From contig NZ_LXFF01000036.1 in the NCBI RefSeq assembly GCF_001655775.1, positions 1-33,609 of the forward strand: DNA of 33,609 nucleotides. Reading direction: 5' to 3'. The translations under genes and the position numbers were made by a program. How positions within the stretch are numbered: the stretch's first letter is position 1; each line of letters starts with the position of its first letter. The notes below the pieces were generated by a model. The model was given only the letters and a program-made list of their open reading frames with translations, did no database searches and was not told where the DNA came from. Of this stretch, positions 148 to 28,717 are shown one piece after another. Origin of the DNA: Candidatus Arthromitus sp. SFB-turkey (lineage in GTDB: Bacteria; Bacillota; Clostridia; Clostridiales; Clostridiaceae).

Positions 148-1194
148 ATGAAAAAAATCTCAAAAACATTTATTAATAATTCAATTTTCATTTCAACTAA
201 CATAGCTATGCTAATTTTATGTAATAAAACAACTCATTCTTCACCGATAACTCATTATTCAAAACCTTCTACAATACGATTGCTAAGTGAAGTATTTAGA
301 AATGAATCTGGAGCATTTTTAAGTAAACTTTCAAACGGACAATTAAAAGCAAGTTTTTTATATTCTGGCAAAACAAACCATACACCCAATAATTTTCCAG
401 TTAAAGCTGGATCCACTATATATGTTAAAAAATCACATAGTACTCCTTTTAAGCATTTAAATCTACAAAGAAATCAAAGAAAATTAGTAGAAAATGGCGT
501 AGCTTTTAGTATTTATACCAAAAGTAAATCGGGACTCATAAAAGAAATTAACATTTCAACAGAAAATGGAAATATCGTAGTTAATTCTACGAAAGGATAT
601 GGAACTCCTAATTATATTTTAAAAAGAACAACTCTTGAGTTTGGAGATGGTGCATCAACTTCTTCTCAATCTTCTTCATCTAAACCTAAAATTACCGTAA
701 AAAGATATTCTATTTCTGATGAAAATTCAAATGTTTTTGATATTGAAGAAACTCGTATCTACAATCCTCTAAACTTAAATTTAATCTCACAAAAAACTAA
801 AAATAAAGCAACAAAACAAAGCGAATCAATCACAATAAATGAAAATAATACAAAAACAAAAATTATGAAAAATCCAGACGGTAGTTCTCTTTACACAATT
901 ATAAATCCAAATGGTAAAACTTTATTTTCAAAAACAACCAATGCAGATGGAAATGCAACAGAAACAAAAAAATATAATCAAGATGGTTCTCTGATTTTTA
1001 CTACATCAAACTATAAATTTTCAGATGATTCAAGTTTTGAAACAACATCATCAAATTCCTCAACAACAACCTATGAACGAAGAAGTGACGGAAGTTTAAT
1101 ATCAATACTAACAACTAACTCTGCCGGAGAAACATTTAAACAAGACTTTGATACAAATAACGATCCATTGAATAATCCATATAAAATCAATTAA
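148..1194 (+). CDS. Tandem-family protein, probably exported, unknown function
   Basis: This is a 348-residue protein of no family I recognise. The ATG at 148 is chosen because the ribosome site AAAAGGTGG lies at 134-142; an in-frame GTG at 139 falls inside that site. Residues 1-30 have a basic start (MKKISK) and a moderately hydrophobic stretch, so a weak Sec signal peptide is likely. Then comes the motif KPSTIRLLSE, shared with the next gene. A mixed beta-type domain follows, then a Ser-rich linker (SSQSSSS, about residue 172). The C-terminal third consists of short NPDGS/NADGN/NQDGS repeats resembling YD/RHS-type beta repeats, and the protein ends NNPYKIN. Its tail matches those of both neighbours. 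A surface or secreted role is inference from the N-terminus and repeats only. Confidence 0.85.
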   Translation: MKKISKTFINNSIFISTNIAMLILCNKTTHSSPITHYSKPSTIRLLSEVFRNESGAFLSKLSNGQLKASFLYSGKTNHTPNNFPVKAGSTIYVKKSHSTPFKHLNLQRNQRKLVENGVAFSIYTKSKSGLIKEINISTENGNIVVNSTKGYGTPNYILKRTTLEFGDGASTSSQSSSSKPKITVKRYSISDENSNVFDIEETRIYNPLNLNLISQKTKNKATKQSESITINENNTKTKIMKNPDGSSLYTIINPNGKTLFSKTTNADGNATETKKYNQDGSLIFTTSNYKFSDDSSFETTSSNSSTTTYERRSDGSLISILTTNSAGETFKQDFDTNNDPLNNPYKIN

Positions 1195-1207
1195 AAGGTG
1201 ATATAAA

Positions 1208-2962
1208 ATGAGAAACTTTTCAAAAATATGTATCAATAGCTCTATTTTTATTTCTAGTAATATTATGACTCTATTAACTTTAAAACAACATGTCAACGCA
1301 ATGCCTAATCCTCTATTTTCTAAACCTTCTACACTTCAACTATTAAGTGAAGCTATTAAAAATCCTACAGAATCATTTATTCAAAGACTATCAAATGGAA
1401 ATTTAAGAGCAAGTTTTCTACATTCTGGAAGGACTGGACATTCATTTCGCAATTTCAATATACGATCTGGTGCATATATAGGTGTTAAAAAAACTTCTAA
1501 CTCTGATTATTCTCCATTGATATCAACAAAATTCAAGAAAAGACTTACAGCAGATGGAATTAATTTCAAAATACATACATTAGTAAAAATAGTTTAAAAA
1601 AAGAAATTGATATATTTGAAGAAAATGGAAAAATTATTGTAAACTCAAAAAAAGGCGAAGGAACTCCAAACTATACTTTTAAATCAACAATTCTCGATTT
1701 CGGAGATAGTGCATCAACTTCCTCACAAGCTTCTTCATCATCAAATCAGCCAAAAATTACTTTAACTAGATACTCTAATTACGATCAAAATACTAAAGAT
1801 TTTATTATAGAAGAAACAACCATATATAATCCTTTCAATTTAAAAGTACTATCTCAAACGAGTACAAATAAAATTACTGAAAAAATATCTGCTTTGTTAG
1901 ATAAACCCGTAACTGATACACCACCTAGAAAATATGACCCTAAAAATTTTCACAAACCTTCTACTGTAAGACTACTAAGTGAAGCCATTATGAATCCAGA
2001 TAAAGCACCAATTACCAAAACTTCTAATGAAAATTTAAAAATAAAATTTTTATATTGGGGTAAAGATTCTTATTTATCTAATAATTTTAATGTTAGAGTT
2101 AACTCGACGATAAATGTTAAAAAAACTTCAGATGCTAGTTTTCAAAAAGTAAATAAACCAACAGGTAAAAGACAAATAACTGAAGAAGGTGTTGCTTTTA
2201 ATATACTTACTCATAACAAGTATGGACTCAGTAAAGAAATTAATATTACAACTCAAAATGGAAATATAATAGTTGATTCTATAAAAAGTGTAGGTACACC
2301 TTTGCATGTTACTAAAAGAACAATGCTTGACTATGGTGATGGATCATCTTCGCCAAAAATCATTGTAACAAGAAATTCTTTTTCAAGTGAGCAATCGAAA
2401 GAATTTGATGTTAAAAAAAGTGCTATATATGATGCTACCAACTTCAAATTACTTTCTCAAATAATTAAAAACGAATCTACTGGAGCAATAGAACATATAA
2501 CAAAAAATCCAGATGACACAAAAACTAGAATTGTTACACATGCTAATGGAAAAACAGAAAGATTTATTATGACACACTATGATGAACATCATTCATTCAG
2601 AATCAATAGATGATGATGGAAATAAATTAATAACAAAACAGCTTGGTAACGAAATATTATCCTTTAAAAAACTTAGCTCAGATGGAAAATTAATTGAAGA
2701 AAGTATCTCTTCTCCTACCCAATATGAATCACGTACATATGATGAAAATGGATTTATAACCTCATCAACAAGATCAAATACACTTCCAAGTGGAGAATCA
2801 CTTGGTACCATAACTTACGCAAATGGATCTTCTATAACTCAAGAACGTAGAAGTAATGGAAGTTTAATATCATCAATAACTCGTACTACTACTGGTGAGT
2901 TAATTAAACAAGATTTTGATGAAAATAATACGCCTATAAATCAACCATATAGAATCAATTAA
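1208..2962 (+). pseudogene. Frameshifted fusion of two tandem-family paralogues
   Basis: The reading frame opens at ATG 1208 after AAAAGGTG (1195-1202), with a signal-peptide-like N-terminus ending HVNA. It follows the paralogue at 148-1194 until about 1580, where one base appears to be missing and the frame stops at TAA 1595-1597. Homology continues without a stop in the new frame (KNSLKKEID onward) to TGA 2611-2613. A 4-base tandem duplication, ATTC ATTC at 2591-2598, caused this second break: removing one copy restores DEHHSESIDDDG and the last frame to 2962. The middle contains a second N-terminal module (KPSTVRLLSE, near 1957) without a signal peptide. The locus therefore looks like one paralogue's front fused to another's body. 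The total of about 585 codons compares with 348 for the intact copy. Separate short products from the fragments are possible but unlikely. Confidence 0.8.
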
Positions 2963-2964
2963 AA

Positions 2965-2993
2965 AAGCAAGTATAGAAGACCTATACTTGCTT
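2965..2993. terminator. Two-way terminator between the tandem array and the RDD gene
   Basis: A perfect 12-base-pair stem (AAGCAAGTATAG with CTATACTTGCTT) encloses a 5-base loop. It has an A-rich left flank and a T-rich right flank, so it can end transcription from both sides. The right arm covers the last codons and stop of the minus-strand RDD gene. Confidence 0.85.
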
Positions 2994-3467
2994 TATATTT
3001 TTTCTGACATCAATAACTCTTACAGAAAATAAATGATCTAACATAAAAGTTTTGGGGAAACTTCGTTTAGCTATTCCAACAAAAATAGAATAAAGAAACA
3101 TCATTGGAATTATTAAAATTCCCATTCCTATTTTTGCAAAATACTCTCTCAAAAAATACATCCAATAAGAAAGTTCATCGCCATCATTAATATGTTTTAT
3201 TCGAATTCCCATAATTTTCTTTCCTATTGTCTGTCCATTTAATTTTTTAGGAATGTACGCAAACAAAAATATTGAAACTATTATCAAACAAATAATCATA
3301 AAATATGATTTTTGAGTATTATTTTCAAAAGCATAAACTTTTGAAGATAAAATAAACAAAAATGCTAGCGGTGCATATATACAAATGTCAATCAAATACG
3401 CAAATAGTCTTTTAATTATTGGTGCATTATCATACCTTTCCTTGTTTATTAAATTTGTTTTAGTCAT
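2982..3467 (-). CDS. RDD-family integral membrane protein
   Basis: This 161-residue membrane protein has an RDD domain. The N-terminal segment APIIKRLFAYLIDICIY carries the R...D pattern that names the family. It is followed by two or three hydrophobic helices, the motif NGQTIGKKIMGIRI typical of the domain's centre, and the late D in FMLDHLFSVRVI. The ATG at 3467 is chosen because GAGGTG lies six bases upstream; an in-frame TTG 15 bases further up overlaps that site. RDD proteins are poorly characterised, and some are linked to ion exchange or transport. The gene follows the ABC exporter pair on the same strand and is probably co-transcribed with it, so an accessory membrane role is possible but unproven. 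Confidence 0.85.
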   Translation of the reverse strand: MTKTNLINKERYDNAPIIKRLFAYLIDICIYAPLAFLFILSSKVYAFENNTQKSYFMIICLIIVSIFLFAYIPKKLNGQTIGKKIMGIRIKHINDGDELSYWMYFLREYFAKIGMGILIIPMMFLYSIFVGIAKRSFPKTFMLDHLFSVRVIDVRKNIKQV

Positions 3468-3501
3468 TAAATTACACCTCAATTTTAATTTTTAAAAAAC
3501 A

Positions 3502-5310
3502 TTACGCTTCTTCTGAAAACTGACTATTATACAAATCAGCATAAACTCCATTTTGTTCCATAAGCTGATCATGATTTCCTTGTTCTATAATATCCCCTTG
3601 TTTCATAACAAGAATTATATCCGCATCCTTTATAGTAGAAAGCCTATGGGCTATAACAAAACTTGTTCTGCCTTTCATAAGTGTTTTCATTGCATTTTGA
3701 ATTAAAACTTCCGTTCTTGTATCTACATTACTTGTAGCCTCATCTAATATAAGAATTTTAGGATCTGCAATTATCGCTCTAGCTATTGTCAAAAGTTGTT
3801 TTTGTCCTTGAGAAATATTAGATGCATCTTCATTTAAAACTGTATCATATCCATTTTCAAGTAATCTAATAAATTCATCTGTATGAGCTGATTTAGATGC
3901 TGATAAAATTTCATCATCTGTAGCACCAATTTTACTATAAGATAAATTTTCTTTTATACTTCCATTAAATAACCATGTATCTTGCAGAACCATGGCAAAA
4001 AGACTTCTTAAATACTCTCTACTCATTTGTGAAATATCAACACCATCAATTTTTATACTACCAGAATTAATTTCATAAAATCTCATTAAAAGATTTATAA
4101 GTGTTGTTTTTCCTGCACCTGTATGACCAACAATCGCAACTTTTTGACCTGGTTTAACATCAATATTAATATTATTCATAAGAATTTTATCAGGAAAATA
4201 ACCAAATTTTACATTTTCAAAAGTAACATGTCCTTTTACATTTTCAATTTCTTTTCCATCTTTTAAATCACTAGAAAATTCTTCTTCGTCTAAAAATTCA
4301 AATATTCTCTCAGCAGCCGCTATAGTAGATTGAAAAATACTTGAAATACTTGCAAGTTGGTTTATTGGCATACCAAATTGACGTGAATACTGTATAAATG
4401 CTTGTATATCACCAATTCCAATTTTACCAATTATTGCAAAATATCCACCTACTATCGCTATAACAATGTAATTTATATTATTTATAAACATCATTATAGG
4501 CATTATAATCCCTGAAATAAACTGAGATTTCCAACCACTTTGATAAAGATTATTGTTAATCTCATCAAATTTTTCAATATTATTAGGTTCACGTCCAAAA
4601 GCTCTTATAACATTATGTCCTGAATACATTTCTTCAATATATCCATTTAAATTTCCTATATATTTTTGTTGTTCTCTAAAATATCTCTGAGATTTTAACA
4701 CCATAGGTTTTATAAAATTAGTACCTATAAATAAAATTCCTATTGCAATAGCAGTCATAATGGGACTTATAGTTATCATAACAACTATAACTCCAACTAT
4801 CGTTATTAAAGAGGAAATAAATTGAGTTAAACTTTCTTGTATAGTTGTACTTACTAACTCAACATCATTTGTAAGTCTACTCAAAACTTCACCATGTGTT
4901 TTTGCGTCGTAATACTTTAAAGGAATCTTCGATATCTTAAGATTTATATCTTTTCTTATATCATACATAGTATTTTGACCAACATTAGCCATAATATAGT
5001 TCTGCAAATAAGTAAATAGACATCCAGTTACATAAACAAGAATAAGTATTAAAATTATTTTTCCGATAAATCCAAAATTAATGCCTCCCACACCGTTTGC
5101 AATTCTAACTGATCCATCAAAAATTTCATTAACAGCTATACTCATAATTTTAGGACCTAAAATATTAAATAACTGTCCTAGTATAGCAAATAAAACAATT
5201 AAAAATAACAATTTAGATCTAACTTTAAAATAACCAAATAATCTCTTTGTTGTTTTCTTAGAATCTTTAGGTTTAGCCCCAGAGAAAGACTTTACATCTA
5301 AATTTTTCAT
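3502..5310 (-). CDS. ABC exporter half-transporter (consensus ATP-site partner)
   Basis: This 602-residue half-transporter has an N-terminal six-helix exporter membrane domain (about residues 30-335) and a C-terminal ATPase domain. The Walker A motif is GHTGAGKT (395-402), Walker B is ILILDE with catalytic Glu524, and the switch is His555. The signature reads ISQGQ (499-503) instead of LSGGQ. Its ATG overlaps the stop of the upstream half-transporter by four bases, so the two are translationally coupled and almost certainly form a heterodimer of the LmrCD or TM287/288 type. Such pairs export drugs, lipids or peptides; the substrate cannot be read from the sequence. The degenerate signature here belongs to the same composite site as the degenerate Walker B of the partner, as expected for an asymmetric exporter. 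Confidence 0.95.
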   Translation of the reverse strand: MKNLDVKSFSGAKPKDSKKTTKRLFGYFKVRSKLLFLIVLFAILGQLFNILGPKIMSIAVNEIFDGSVRIANGVGGINFGFIGKIILILILVYVTGCLFTYLQNYIMANVGQNTMYDIRKDINLKISKIPLKYYDAKTHGEVLSRLTNDVELVSTTIQESLTQFISSLITIVGVIVVMITISPIMTAIAIGILFIGTNFIKPMVLKSQRYFREQQKYIGNLNGYIEEMYSGHNVIRAFGREPNNIEKFDEINNNLYQSGWKSQFISGIIMPIMMFINNINYIVIAIVGGYFAIIGKIGIGDIQAFIQYSRQFGMPINQLASISSIFQSTIAAAERIFEFLDEEEFSSDLKDGKEIENVKGHVTFENVKFGYFPDKILMNNINIDVKPGQKVAIVGHTGAGKTTLINLLMRFYEINSGSIKIDGVDISQMSREYLRSLFAMVLQDTWLFNGSIKENLSYSKIGATDDEILSASKSAHTDEFIRLLENGYDTVLNEDASNISQGQKQLLTIARAIIADPKILILDEATSNVDTRTEVLIQNAMKTLMKGRTSFVIAHRLSTIKDADIILVMKQGDIIEQGNHDQLMEQNGVYADLYNSQFSEEA

Positions 5311-25182: not shown

Positions 25183-26646
25183 TTGTACAAATTAGATCAA
25201 AACAAAACACCAATTTTTGATTCGTTAATGAAATATGTAAATAACAATACAATTCCTTTTCACGTTCCTGGACACAAAAAAGGAATTGGCATTCCAGATG
25301 ATTTTAAAAATTTTATTGGAGAAAATGCTTTTAAAATAGATGTTACTGTTTTTAAATCAGTTGATAGTTTGCACCATCCAACTTCATCTATAAAAGAAGC
25401 TGAAGAATTAATTGCAGATGCATATAATTCCGACTATTCTTTTTTGTGTATTAATGGTACAACAATTGCAATTCAAGCAATGATAATGTCAGCAGTTTCT
25501 GAAGGGGATAAGATTTTAATACCTAGAAATGTACATAAATCAATAACGGCTGGGATTATTTTAAGTGGTGCAATTCCAATTTATATGGAACCAGATATTG
25601 ATGAGTTTTTATCTATTTCGCATGGAATTTCATTAGAAACTATAGAAACATCTCTAAAAAATAATCCTGATGTTAAAGCTGTCTTAATAATAAATCCAAC
25701 TTATTATGGAGTATCAACAGATATTAAAAATATTGCAAATGTAGTTCATTCTTACAACATTCCACTATTAGTTGATGAAGCTCATGGACCTCATTTAATT
25801 TTCAATAAAAAACTTCCTATTTGTGCAATGGACGCAGGTGCAGATATATGTGCACAAAGCACACATAAAATAACAAGTTCACTTACACAAGGTTCTCTAT
25901 TACATGTAAAATCAAAATATATTGAACCGAGTAGAGTTCGTCAAGTTTTAAATTTACTTCAAACAACCTCTCCTTCATATATAATTTTAGCTTCATTAGA
26001 CTGTACAAGAAAACAATTAGCTTTAAATGGTGAAAATTTGATAGAAAAATCAATAGAACTTTCAAATTACGCTAGAAATGAAATAAATAAAATAGATTAT
26101 TTATATTGTTTTGGAGAAGAATTAAACAATGGAAAGGGATTTTTCGCTTTCGACCCAACAAAAATAACAATTAATTGCAGAAAACTTGGAATTAGCGGTT
26201 ATGATTTAGAAAATATTTTATCAACAAAATATCATGTACAATTAGAAATGGCAGATGCTTATAATGGACTTGCAGTAGGATCGTTTGGGGATACAAAAGA
26301 AAGTATAGATTCATTAATAAATGCACTTAAAGAAATAAGTGAAACTACCAAAGGTAAGACTCTCAAAAATTTTTCACTTGTTTTGCCTAAAATTCCTGAA
26401 CAAATTTATTCTCCTAGAAAAGCATTTCAAGCACAAAAAAAATCAATTCCATTAAAACAAAGTGCTAACAAAATAAGCGGAGAATTTTTATTAGCATATC
26501 CACCAGGAATTCCGATTCTCTGTCCTGGCGAAATGATAACACAAGAAATAATAGACTATATTGAATATATAAAATCTATTGGTTTATTTGTTCAAGGAAC
26601 TGAAGATCCAAAAATTGAAAATATAAAAATAATTGAACAAAATTAA
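25183..26646 (+). CDS. Orn/Lys/Arg decarboxylase family, PLP-dependent
   Basis: This 487-residue fold-type I PLP enzyme removes CO2 from a basic amino acid to give a diamine or agmatine. It begins at TTG 25183 after AAAGGATG; the nearby ATG at 25171 runs straight into a stop. Motifs are PFHVPGHKKG at the N-terminus, DEAHG (198-202, cofactor ring-binding Asp) and STHK with Lys229 as the Schiff-base lysine. The C-terminal domain ends LLAYPPGIPILCPGE, typical of the biosynthetic SpeA-like group of Gram-positive bacteria, which lacks the extra N-terminal wing of inducible enterobacterial enzymes. Arginine or lysine are the likely substrates; the sequence alone does not decide. No spermidine-synthesis genes are adjacent. 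Confidence 0.92.
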   Translation: MYKLDQNKTPIFDSLMKYVNNNTIPFHVPGHKKGIGIPDDFKNFIGENAFKIDVTVFKSVDSLHHPTSSIKEAEELIADAYNSDYSFLCINGTTIAIQAMIMSAVSEGDKILIPRNVHKSITAGIILSGAIPIYMEPDIDEFLSISHGISLETIETSLKNNPDVKAVLIINPTYYGVSTDIKNIANVVHSYNIPLLVDEAHGPHLIFNKKLPICAMDAGADICAQSTHKITSSLTQGSLLHVKSKYIEPSRVRQVLNLLQTTSPSYIILASLDCTRKQLALNGENLIEKSIELSNYARNEINKIDYLYCFGEELNNGKGFFAFDPTKITINCRKLGISGYDLENILSTKYHVQLEMADAYNGLAVGSFGDTKESIDSLINALKEISETTKGKTLKNFSLVLPKIPEQIYSPRKAFQAQKKSIPLKQSANKISGEFLLAYPPGIPILCPGEMITQEIIDYIEYIKSIGLFVQGTEDPKIENIKIIEQN

Positions 26647-26670
26647 AGAGTCACAGAAATCTGTGACTCT
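26647..26670. terminator. Two-way terminator between the decarboxylase and rpsU
   Basis: AGAGTCACAG and CTGTGACTCT form a perfect stem with a 4-base loop directly after the decarboxylase stop. T-runs follow on both strands (ATTTTT on plus, TTTAATTTT on minus). It is the first good terminator downstream of rpsU, 168 bases after its stop. Confidence 0.88.
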
Positions 26671-26768
26671 AAATTTTTCCATAAATATGTTAATACATAA
26701 TCACTTACCCAACAAAACTATTAATCAATAATTCAAAACTAATATTTATAACTTAATTCGTAGCTGTC

Positions 26769-26822
26769 GAGGAAGGTGTAAATCACCATAAAATATAACA
26801 GTAATTGATCCTGCTATTCCTC
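26769..26822 (-). ncRNA. Predicted three-helix RNA element in the rpsU 3' region
   Basis: Read on the minus strand, GAGGA (26822-26818) closes on UCCUC (26773-26769). Inside it AUAGCAG pairs with CUGUUAU around a 9-base loop, and GGUG pairs with CACC around AUUUA, with an AUUUUAU linker between the two hairpins. One pair in the first hairpin is G-U on this strand but A-C on the other, so transcription with rpsU is favoured. It begins 15 bases after the rpsU stop. I do not recognise it as a known riboswitch or ribozyme class. Confidence 0.5.
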
Positions 26823-26837
26823 TATATTAATCATACG

Positions 26838-27014
26838 CTATTTAAATTTTCGCTTTCTTGCAGCTTCAGATTTTTTCTTTCTCTTAACACTTGGTTTAAC
26901 GTAATGTTCTCTCTTTTTAACCTCAGATAAAACTCCAGCTCGTGCACACTTTCTCTTAAATCTTTTCAAAGCACTCTCTAAAGATTCATTTTCTCCAACC
27001 TTTATTTCAGACAT
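26838..27014 (-). CDS. rpsU: 30S ribosomal protein S21
   Basis: This 58-residue basic protein starts [19 protein letters not shown], then [20 protein letters not shown], and ends in a Lys/Arg-rich tail ([15 protein letters not shown]). This is the full S21 sequence pattern, a small subunit protein near the mRNA entry/anti-Shine-Dalgarno region. The ATG at 27014 follows a very strong ribosome site (GGAGGGAGGG, seven bases away). The gene stands at the conserved end of the prmA-rsmE-mtaB-HIT block but has its own consensus promoter, because a DUF4214 gene intervenes. It ends at TAG 26838, followed by the structured element and a shared terminator. Confidence 0.97.
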
Positions 27015-27085
27015 ATATTTTCCCTCCCTCCGCTAGTACAAAATACAAACTTTATACTCTATATGGGTCAGCGATTTCATCTAGA

Positions 27086-27114
27086 ATTATACAATAAATA
27101 ATTTTTTATGTCAA
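27086..27114 (-). promoter_or_regulatory. Consensus promoter of rpsU
   Basis: On the minus strand a perfect TTGACA (27114-27109), a 17-base spacer and a perfect TATAAT (27091-27086) give an ideal vegetative promoter. The predicted leader of about 65 bases ends in the GGAGGGAGGG ribosome site and contains CGCT/AGCG complementarity that could fold it. Confidence 0.85.
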
Positions 27115-27218: not shown

Positions 27219-28346
27219 TTATTTTTGTGCTTTTAAAACTTCCATCGGATCAAATTTATAAGTCGATGAAGGATCAGAAAATATAAAATACATTTCTTTT
27301 GAACCATCTACAGTATACTTAGCAATGTTAACCCCATTAACACTAGAAACATTTTTAGTTCTACCAAGCTTAACTATTATATCAAAAAAAGTCATTCCCA
27401 TTTTTATTTCTGAAAGTTGATTTGATGTTATTGATCTAATATTATTTTTTGTAGTCAAAAGCTCTGAATAAAATAAATTCAAATCTACCTTTTTAAAAAT
27501 TACATTCATGTTTTTAATTCTTGATAAAAATTCTGTATTATCAGCAATATTTAATACAATATTTGCCATTCTATTTGAAGATTTATCTTTTTGATAAATT
27601 GAATTCCAATAATTTAATCCATCTTGATCAGCTGTTCTATTAAACAACACCTCATACATTACTCCTATAAATTGCTGATCTGTTAAATTTCTAGCTTTAA
27701 ACTCATCAAGAGATATAAATTGATTAATCAAATCAATAGCACCTTTATCTTGAGATGTTAATTGTCCTTTCCAATAATTAAAACCTTCTTGATCATACTG
27801 ACGTCCTAAAATATGTTCATACGCATCTCTTATAAAAATATCAATATCACTAAGTTGTTCCGGAACAACTACTGGTTTTTCTTCCTCATATATCTTAAAA
27901 ACTATTCCCATTTCATTTATTTTGCCAATAAATTCTTCACTATGAGCCATTTGATTTATTAAATTAAGTTGTTGTTCTTTAGTGCTGTTTTCTCCTAACT
28001 TACTCATCCAATAATTAAATCCATCTTCATCTGGTTCTCTATTTATTAAAAGATTGTAATTCTTAGTTATAAAATCTTCAGATGAAATACTTAAACTCGC
28101 AAACTCTTCCTGACTTAATATTTGATTTAGGAAATCTAAAATTCCTATATCTCCACTTAATATTTTTCCACTCCAATATGATTTACCTTCTTCATCTGCT
28201 TCTCTATTAAGCATAATACTGTAAACACTATCTAAAAAACTATCCAAATATTCTTCCTTAGTTTCAGCATAAGCAGAAAAACCACCCAAACACAACGACA
28301 ACGATAACAAACTACCAAGAACAATTTTCTTAATATTTTTTTTCAT
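27219..28346 (-). CDS. Exported protein with four DUF4214 repeats
   Basis: This 375-residue secreted protein starts at ATG 28346 after AAAGGA; the longer open frame overlaps the HIT gene. Residues 1-27 are a clear signal peptide (basic start, LGSLLSLSLCLGGFSAYA, cleavage before ETKEE). Four DUF4214-type units follow, each with the pattern Y-x-x-x-L-x-R-x-x-D-x-x-G-x-x-Y-W: MLNREADEEGKSYW, LINREPDEDGFNYW, ILGRQYDQEGFNYW and LFNRTADQDGLNYW. The last 90 residues contain EIKMGMTFFDIIVKLGRT, reminiscent of BamE/SmpA-like small domains. DUF4214 is common in S-layer and other surface proteins, with no defined activity. It lies 29 bases after the HIT gene and seems co-transcribed with the translation block. 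Confidence 0.88.
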   Translation of the reverse strand: MKKNIKKIVLGSLLSLSLCLGGFSAYAETKEEYLDSFLDSVYSIMLNREADEEGKSYWSGKILSGDIGILDFLNQILSQEEFASLSISSEDFITKNYNLLINREPDEDGFNYWMSKLGENSTKEQQLNLINQMAHSEEFIGKINEMGIVFKIYEEEKPVVVPEQLSDIDIFIRDAYEHILGRQYDQEGFNYWKGQLTSQDKGAIDLINQFISLDEFKARNLTDQQFIGVMYEVLFNRTADQDGLNYWNSIYQKDKSSNRMANIVLNIADNTEFLSRIKNMNVIFKKVDLNLFYSELLTTKNNIRSITSNQLSEIKMGMTFFDIIVKLGRTKNVSSVNGVNIAKYTVDGSKEMYFIFSDPSSTYKFDPMEVLKAQK

Positions 28347-28375
28347 ACTAAATCCTTTCTTAATAAAAATAACTA

Positions 28376-28717
28376 TTAGCAAAATGTAGGTGTAAGTTCT
28401 TGTCCACCAACAATATGAAAATGTATATGCTTTACAGATTGAAAAGCATGTGCTCCACAATTATTTACAACTCTATAACCAGTCTGATCAATTTTAAGAG
28501 CCTTTACTATTTTTGTTATAGCTAAGAAAACGTGTTTTACATAATCAATATTACTATCATTAAGACCATTTAAATCTTCAACATGCAATTTAGGAATAAC
28601 AATTATATGATTAGTTGCAGATGGATAAATATCTTCAAACCCAATTACATATTCATCCTCATATACAACTGTACAAGGAACTTCACCTTGAACTATTTTA
28701 CAAAAAATACACTCCAT
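28376..28717 (-). CDS. HIT-family nucleotide hydrolase (HinT-like)
   Basis: This 113-residue histidine-triad protein hydrolyses purine nucleoside phosphoramidates or related adenylates in HinT relatives. It begins MECIFCKIVQGEVP at ATG 28717 after AAGGAGG. Cys3 and Cys6 form the usual N-terminal metal pair. The triad HIHFHIVGG covers residues 97-105, with His97, His99 and His101 (the catalytic nucleophile). The length and sequence match the family. Its position after mtaB and before rpsU is the conserved arrangement in Clostridia, here modified by the DUF4214 gene. It starts 14 bases after the mtaB stop. Confidence 0.95.
   Translation of the reverse strand: MECIFCKIVQGEVPCTVVYEDEYVIGFEDIYPSATNHIIVIPKLHVEDLNGLNDSNIDYVKHVFLAITKIVKALKIDQTGYRVVNNCGAHAFQSVKHIHFHIVGGQELTPTFC

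Follow-up and report, generated by a model that had tools for sequence, protein, structure and literature searches.

The window, that is, the whole stretch of 33,609 nucleotides analysed here from Candidatus Arthromitus sp. SFB-turkey, whose genome is 1.63 Mb, carries on its minus strand the gene rpsU for ribosomal protein S21 (58 amino acids; 26838..27014, with the stop codon UAG at 26840-26838), and the S21 sequence does not differ among the three species of the genus (G000-G002). Upstream lies a promoter-like site, TTGACA-17-TATAAT (27086..27114, -), which agrees with the consensus at 12 of 12 positions and is identified by that agreement only. The 5'UTR strand UUUUGUACUAGCGGAGGGAGGG at 27022..27043 (-) includes the Shine-Dalgarno (SD) sequence GAGGGAGG at 27030-27023 and, by complementarity and folding, is one strand of a proposed long-range helix. 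Its counterpart, the putative anti-SD strand CCUUCCUCGACAGCUACGAA, follows the gene at 26757..26776 (-) and, as complementarity, folding and conservation suggest, may take either the 5'UTR or nearby local strands as its partner.

A terminator-like stem common to rpsU and a convergent gene lies at 26647..26670 (-); its upper stem differs in one species of the genus (G001) with the pairing kept. The hairpin is terminator-like on both strands and could therefore serve both rpsU and the convergent gene, which occupies 25183-26646 and by eye resembles an Orn/Lys/Arg decarboxylase. The remaining rpsU 3'UTR, 26680-26757 (-), holds the blocks AATTAAGTTA, TAATAGTTTT and GGGTAAGTG, which are common to all three species. 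Between rpsU and a gene resembling the HIT family, 27219-28460 (-) probably encodes a secreted protein, whose sequence we take to resemble DUF4214 repeats; a gene of similar appearance lies near 40.7 kb of contig G000:C12.

The local junction downstream of rpsU

The original prediction for this locus was a compact three-way junction at 26769..26822, formed by three nested helices on the rpsU transcript. These helices are real. On the minus strand, P1 (GAGGA/UCCUC, 5 pairs), P2 (AUAGCAG/CUGUUAU, 7 pairs, one of them G-U) and P3 (GGUG/CACC, 4 pairs) fold at -14.6 kcal/mol (z -2.86), a stability that 4 of 200 dinucleotide shuffles equal or exceed, as against -10.7 (z -2.27) for the plus strand of the same interval. 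The element is a conserved RNA feature of the rpsU strand. With the flanks included (26755-26842, -) z is -1.68 and 11 of 200 shuffles do as well, so that the element is just mildly unusual when judged by energy alone. Folding also predicts an outer helix, UAGC/GCUA, which surrounds the junction, contains the rpsU stop codon and was absent from the earlier description; the local fold and the genus alignment together give a competing strand, UAGC...GAGGA, that runs from the stop codon to the 5' strand of P1 (26818..26840, -). When the rpsU 3'UTRs of the three species are aligned, the stems of the junction are identical, the loops differ and the outer AGC/GCU is kept, and since the stems are identical compensatory change cannot show within the genus.

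The junction had also been said not to be the terminator, with which we agree, and to match no familiar riboswitch or ribozyme consensus. An intrinsic terminator was rejected as the identity of the element: the sole terminator-like stem found is the one at 26670-26647, about 100 bases further on. Rfam (release 15) placed no family over the element when the whole window was searched at gathering cut-offs, none of its six hits at E<=10 within 26600-27100 lay over the element, it gave no match at E<=1 across 12 loci, and a scan for tRNA and tmRNA returned none. Three further candidates were set aside. The best other match in the genome (34 nt, 88%, on G000:C12), considered as a second copy, lies inside a coding gene that by eye resembles DUF4214 and was taken as chance; a small open reading frame in the rpsU 3'UTR was rejected by eye; and for an internal promoter near the element we found no convincing site, the two weak matches (26770-26741 and 26693-26666, each 9/12) being within chance.

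A conserved motif, mostly inside yqeY

Relatives carry the exact 14-mer ACCTTCCTCAGCAG downstream of rpsU, and its counterpart in the window, ACCTTCCTCGACAG, lies on the 3' side of the junction. The 3' strand of the junction, CCUUCCUCGACAGC, appears to be a divergent version of the motif UACCUUCCUCAGCAGUUAA, which is found downstream of rpsU across the Clostridiaceae. The gene next to rpsU is usually yqeY, and in most loci of the family the motif falls within its reading frame as the codons for Y-L-P-Q-Q-L; in the window and in loci without yqeY it is free in the rpsU 3'UTR. Our family set consists of 130 rpsU loci (30 + 100), drawn largely by rank of E-value from 190 matching genomes, and codon use was computed for 127 loci (140 with a YqeY hit, less 9 short matches and 4 odd frames), 101 of them full-length yqeY genes of the family. 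Within these 101 the six codons are close to fixed: TAC in 95/100, CTT in 96/99, CCT in 94/101, CAG in 89/94, CAG in 78/101 and TTA in 87/100. The leucine codon CTT holds its place even though TTA is the commonest choice in 8 of the 14 leucine columns of yqeY, and the CAG of 89/94 does so although CAA leads in 5 of the 6 other Gln columns (the two Gln of the motif excluded). Columns 4, 70, 111 and 119 of yqeY are biased as strongly as single columns of the motif, and the distinctive trait is therefore the unbroken run of six. These four columns suggest further constrained stretches in the gene; serine at column 119 is AGC in 70/80 and alanine at column 111 is GCA in 38/41.

The motif is also retained where the reading frame is not. 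Beside rpsU, yqeY is lost or decayed in the genus of the window (G000-G002) and in genera g18, g19, g25, g3, g30 and g47, with stop-containing fragments at rpsU in G175, G184, G134 and G026. Across 24 loci of eight genera in which the rpsU-linked yqeY is absent or decayed (eight being a count of genera, not of independent losses derived from a tree), the 14-mer survives with, as an average over genera, 1.15 mismatches, whereas the 14-mers of yqeY as a whole have a median of 4.5 and the best stretch off the motif, which is AT-rich, has 3.1. The three species of the genus show 2, 2 and 6 mismatches, the 6 belonging to G001, and a search for YqeY (PF09424) found it in none of these three genomes; of 24 genomes outside the genus whose yqeY at rpsU is decayed, 21 carry a full YqeY match elsewhere. 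One retention case, L048 (identical in sequence to L266), comes from another family, in which L268 and L269 keep yqeY with TACCTTCCTCAACAG. Retention of the motif after loss of the frame points, in these comparisons, to a constraint on the nucleotides and not on the protein. Among the 70 loci without a YqeY hit, 20 were counted as bearing the motif (L123, the G001 locus, was positioned manually, and L156 and L252 show 3 mismatches). From the other 50 came five weak matches only, at 5-6 substitutions in 19; in L083 (C. beijerinckii) both yqeY and the motif are missing beside rpsU.

In the relatives, AAGG(G)AAAUA and a hairpin precede the motif, AAGG pairing with the CCUU of the motif (P1) and P2 following. 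An alignment of 42 hand-picked sequences (A2), which omits L126, L174, L198, L156, L240 and L048 so that they could be used as held-out loci, has 89.8% of its cells paired and 7 pairs changed on both sides, a number reached by 23 of 500 shuffles; its P1/P2 covariation score is above that of all slid versions and is reached by 0 of 500 shuffles. A second alignment (A4), of 14 hand-picked sequences with yqeY missing or broken, has 88.5% of its cells paired and 4 double-changed pairs (8 of 500 shuffles; score, 1 of 500), and slid by one column it gives 4 pairs and 7 double-change cells against 4 and 8 unslid; it omits near-duplicates and poor fits (L298-L300, L174, L198, L156 and L240 among them), and its pair counts therefore lean towards structure. 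The A2 model found five of the six held-out loci at E<=0.01, L156 not being found at its motif, and at the same threshold it has a match in 109 of 117 genomes from the order (a single one in 107 of the 109), partly because yqeY itself is conserved. A covarying, conserved RNA structure on a ribosomal protein mRNA, the feature expected of an autogenous S21 operator, is thus present in the relatives as P1/P2.

The original prediction had named compensatory changes in relatives, sought with a covariance model, as the mark of a genuine fold. The outcome is divided: such changes are seen in P2 of what is probably the homologous element of the relatives but not among the three species of the genus, and the copy in the window scores weakly. 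Against the A2 model it reaches 13.2 bits (E 2.2 in 136 kb), and a genome-wide search of the genus with that model gave no hits above chance level (0 of 3 genomes); against the A4 model, 26826-26760 has E 0.025 over the 211-base 3'UTR, G002 scores 14.0 bits (E 0.85 in 127 kb) and G001 is missed. With scores as weak as these, the membership of the window copy rests on position, motif and layout, by which it is probably a homologue of the relatives' element.

Predicted pairing with the Shine-Dalgarno sequence and two competing states

Clostridia use SD sequences generally. The motif UACCUUCCUCAGCAGUUAA is complementary to the rpsU 5'UTR sequence GCUAGCGGAGGGAGGG, a region that is near-invariant in the family (GCTAGCGGAGGGAGGGA in 115 of 130 loci, ACTAGC.. 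in 11 of 130). The computed helix, GCU-A-GC-g-GAGGGAGG with CCUUCCUC-a-GC-AG(U/C), has 13-18 pairs in 16 of 17 loci and 10 in L126, at about -18 to -23 kcal/mol across loci. In the window the pair is UUUGUACU-A-G..GAGGGAGG with CCUUCCUC..CAG-c-UACGAA, at -20.1, and in g30 a variant motif still pairs at -23.4. An unusual extended SD, GGAGGGAGGG, stands upstream of rpsU in 41 of 80 named clostridial loci (L043-L122), whether the motif is present or not, and RAGGGAGGG in 17 more of those 80. Within the family, and likewise in L268/L269, the GCTAGC part accompanies the motif, as it partly does in L271 (CCTAGC).

Because the SD core is nearly invariant it cannot covary. The complementarity might be a by-product of a pyrimidine-rich sequence, in an element that consists of the local hairpin and a single-stranded motif only and that binds S21, YqeY or a nuclease or stabilises the mRNA. 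We consider this unlikely. The complementarity reaches beyond the SD into GCUAGC, and in 94 of the 99 family yqeY loci used for the recoding test the native codons outdo 95% of synonymous recodings in pairing with the SD of their locus (outside the family, the native codons are within the best 5% in 4 of 26 loci). Native SD-motif pairs are also better than pairs swapped between genera: among yqeY-bearing loci of 32 genera, 18 of 4000 permutations were as good, as against 545-3800 of 4000 at 10 control positions, where pairing is about -6 to -9 kcal/mol compared with -20 at the motif. Over 37 genera the figure was 5/4000, and over 50 genera, with 20 added loci chosen from hits of the element model plus L048, it was 72/6000; for the flanks alone the signal was weak, at 294/4000 (32 genera) and 251 and 441/4000 (37-genera test). 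Genus g3 (L299-L303) has moved both strands into a new register, ACUGCU with AGCAGU; the 5'UTRs of other genera pair less well with the g3 motif in 49 of 49 swaps, and the motifs of other genera pair equally with its 5'UTR in 13 of 49. On the other side stand the covariation of P1/P2 in the relatives, the folds of a few loci in which the local structure wins (below) and the fact that at least three genera hold the 5'UTR without the motif, namely g12 (L150, L193, L236), g60 (L246, L247) and g22 (L304), the GCTAGC part persisting there (as ACTAGC in g60 and g22); L193 and L236, which have no motif-like stretch within 5 substitutions, were excluded from the swap, recoding and fold tests. A lead towards covariation of the Sporomusa type (AGUGG with CAACA) is not counted as support, because recodings as strong, infrequent in L072 (0.025) and L070 (0.062), are frequent in L073 (0.443) and L086 (0.608), and because in L314, whose 5'UTR carries AGUGG and whose motif carries CAGC, the change is uncompensated.

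In the genus of the window itself the record is more mixed, and the copy there might be decayed yqeY debris or a chance match with no present function, even if the element of the relatives works. Its weak covariance score, the divergence of G001, with its 6 mismatches and its absence from the A4 hits, and the pairing of the flanks in the genus, no better than shuffles (393, 434 and 287 of 1000), all lean that way; for G001, 34 and 33 of 49 swaps with the motifs or 5'UTRs of other genera give pairing at least as strong. We nevertheless find this reading improbable: the 3'UTR stems and the motif region are kept across three species while the loops vary, CCTTCCTC occurs once on the minus strand of the 33.6-kb window, at this very site, and the pairing of the 3'UTR with the SD is matched by 6 of 1000 dinucleotide shuffles. 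On the opposite side, 26 of 838 tiles of 160 nt from the window pair with the rpsU SD as well as the 3'UTR does. Taken together, the long-range pairing is well supported in the family and moderately so in the genus of the window.

The long-range helix and the local junction share the strand 26776-26757 and are for that reason mutually exclusive. Folding of the complete 435-nt rpsU mRNA from the window gives the SD-motif pairs a probability of 0.94-0.98, local P1 and the outer helix about 0, and the outer long-range flank UUUGUA with UACGAA nearly 0. The mean SD-motif probability is 0.89 in G002 and 0.019 in G001, where the local state is favoured; it is at least 0.5 in 79 of 128 loci and 0.0 in the yqeY-less L137 and L160, in which local folds win. 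In 17 loci the forced SD-open state and the full long-range helix differ by 0 to 8.4 kcal/mol (13 of them within 5.3), the long-range state being the lower in 10, the SD-open state in 6, with one tie. From these modelled energies we infer that the two states form a switch and would interconvert. The compact junction, originally put forward as a structure in its own right, thus exists as a fold and is at best one of two states, the putative SD-free one. Conservation falls on its 3' strand, for which the full mRNA of the window predicts a partner about 250 nt upstream, the rpsU SD.

A proposed control element of rpsU

We propose that the element is probably a cis-acting translational control element of rpsU, in which an anti-SD motif covers the SD in one of two stable states. 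The pyrimidine-rich motif, CCUUCCUC..AGC.., would pair over some 220-510 nt with CUAGC-GGAGGGAGG of the 5'UTR and so cover the SD. The local hairpin domain upstream of the motif (P1/P2 in the relatives; P1-P2-P3 and the outer UAGC/GCUA in the genus) would use the motif strand too, and because the strand is the same the mRNA could switch between SD-covered and SD-free forms. After the downstream motif has been transcribed, covering of the SD would be expected to reduce translation of rpsU, and bS21 may stabilise the closed form, being the likeliest signal because it binds a mimic of the SD:anti-SD duplex in OLE RNA. In the genus of the window yqeY is gone and the element would have been left behind in the rpsU 3'UTR. 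A fuller version, that an S21 RNA regulator inside yqeY outlived the gene in several lineages and that excess S21 clamps the SD:anti-SD duplex of its own mRNA, mimicking the ribosomal site and turning off its own synthesis, we put forward tentatively, as somewhat less probable than not. The suggestion of an autoregulatory site for S21, one of several in the original prediction, therefore comes near to the best-supported reading, with S21 entering as the ligand by analogy. That the motif pairs in trans with the SDs of other mRNAs, as a 3'UTR-derived small RNA set free with the 3' fragment, is very unlikely, since, although the pyrimidine-rich anti-SD motif adjoins a terminator and the long 3'UTR is conserved in the genus, the motif lies inside yqeY and away from the 3' end in most family loci, matches the rpsU 5'UTR over more than a generic SD and has near it only the two chance-level promoter matches.

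The arrangement has parallels in known systems. In the icaR mRNA of Staphylococcus aureus, a UCCCCUG motif in the 3'UTR pairs with the SD of the same mRNA, and a block of translation and cleavage by RNase III have been demonstrated (PMC3868564). Here, too, a downstream C-rich motif is complementary to the SD of its own mRNA and would be expected to block initiation; by comparison with icaR as described there, the gene and the sequence are different, and the rpsU motif lies beside a covarying hairpin domain, occurs in many genera and is mostly inside a second coding gene, being in the 3'UTR for the window and the yqeY-less loci and within yqeY in most family loci. Escherichia coli bL20 is under autogenous control with a long-range pseudoknot (PMC10931766), and the features shared with that account are a ribosomal protein mRNA, a long-range structure proposed to lie on or close to the ribosome site, and a proposed mimicry of an rRNA site for recognition; in contrast to bL20, the downstream half of the rpsU element follows the coding region, and S21 is a putative ligand of its own mRNA.

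For rpsU itself, the same recent review has the regulation of the E. coli gene as remaining unknown (PMC10931766). In Flavobacterium johnsoniae, ribosomes that lack bS21 bring about autoregulation of rpsU by way of an extended SD (PMC9976891); the likeness lies in an rpsU gene with an extended SD and S21-related control (here proposed), and the difference in that control there runs through the ribosome, with no downstream mRNA element described. The closest analogy for recognition is P6 of the OLE RNA of Halalkalibacterium, a mimic of the SD:anti-SD duplex that is bound by bS21, binding being strongly reduced when conserved base pairs are inverted (PMC12054373). According to the same source, the yqeY and bS21 genes are often in one operon and both proteins are linked to OLE RNA. 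In OLE P6 as in the rpsU mRNA, SD-like and anti-SD-like strands would form a duplex within one RNA; OLE, however, is a separate noncoding RNA of about 600 nt, and our comparison with it is limited to the absence of an Rfam hit. We found no description of the element in the openly licensed literature on the control of rpsU, yqeY and S21, so far as the available parts of those sources go. That an SD can be covered by a motif further down its own mRNA is already known, as is the control of ribosomal protein mRNAs; what look new are this instance, its location inside another gene and its survival after the loss of that gene.

A conserved element on the rpsU mRNA across the Clostridiaceae would supply a concrete mechanism for the control of S21, a protein tied to the recognition of the SD itself. 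It would, moreover, clearly exemplify a regulatory RNA that is embedded in a protein gene and persists after the death of that gene, so that what appears to be pseudogene debris would be the functional part.
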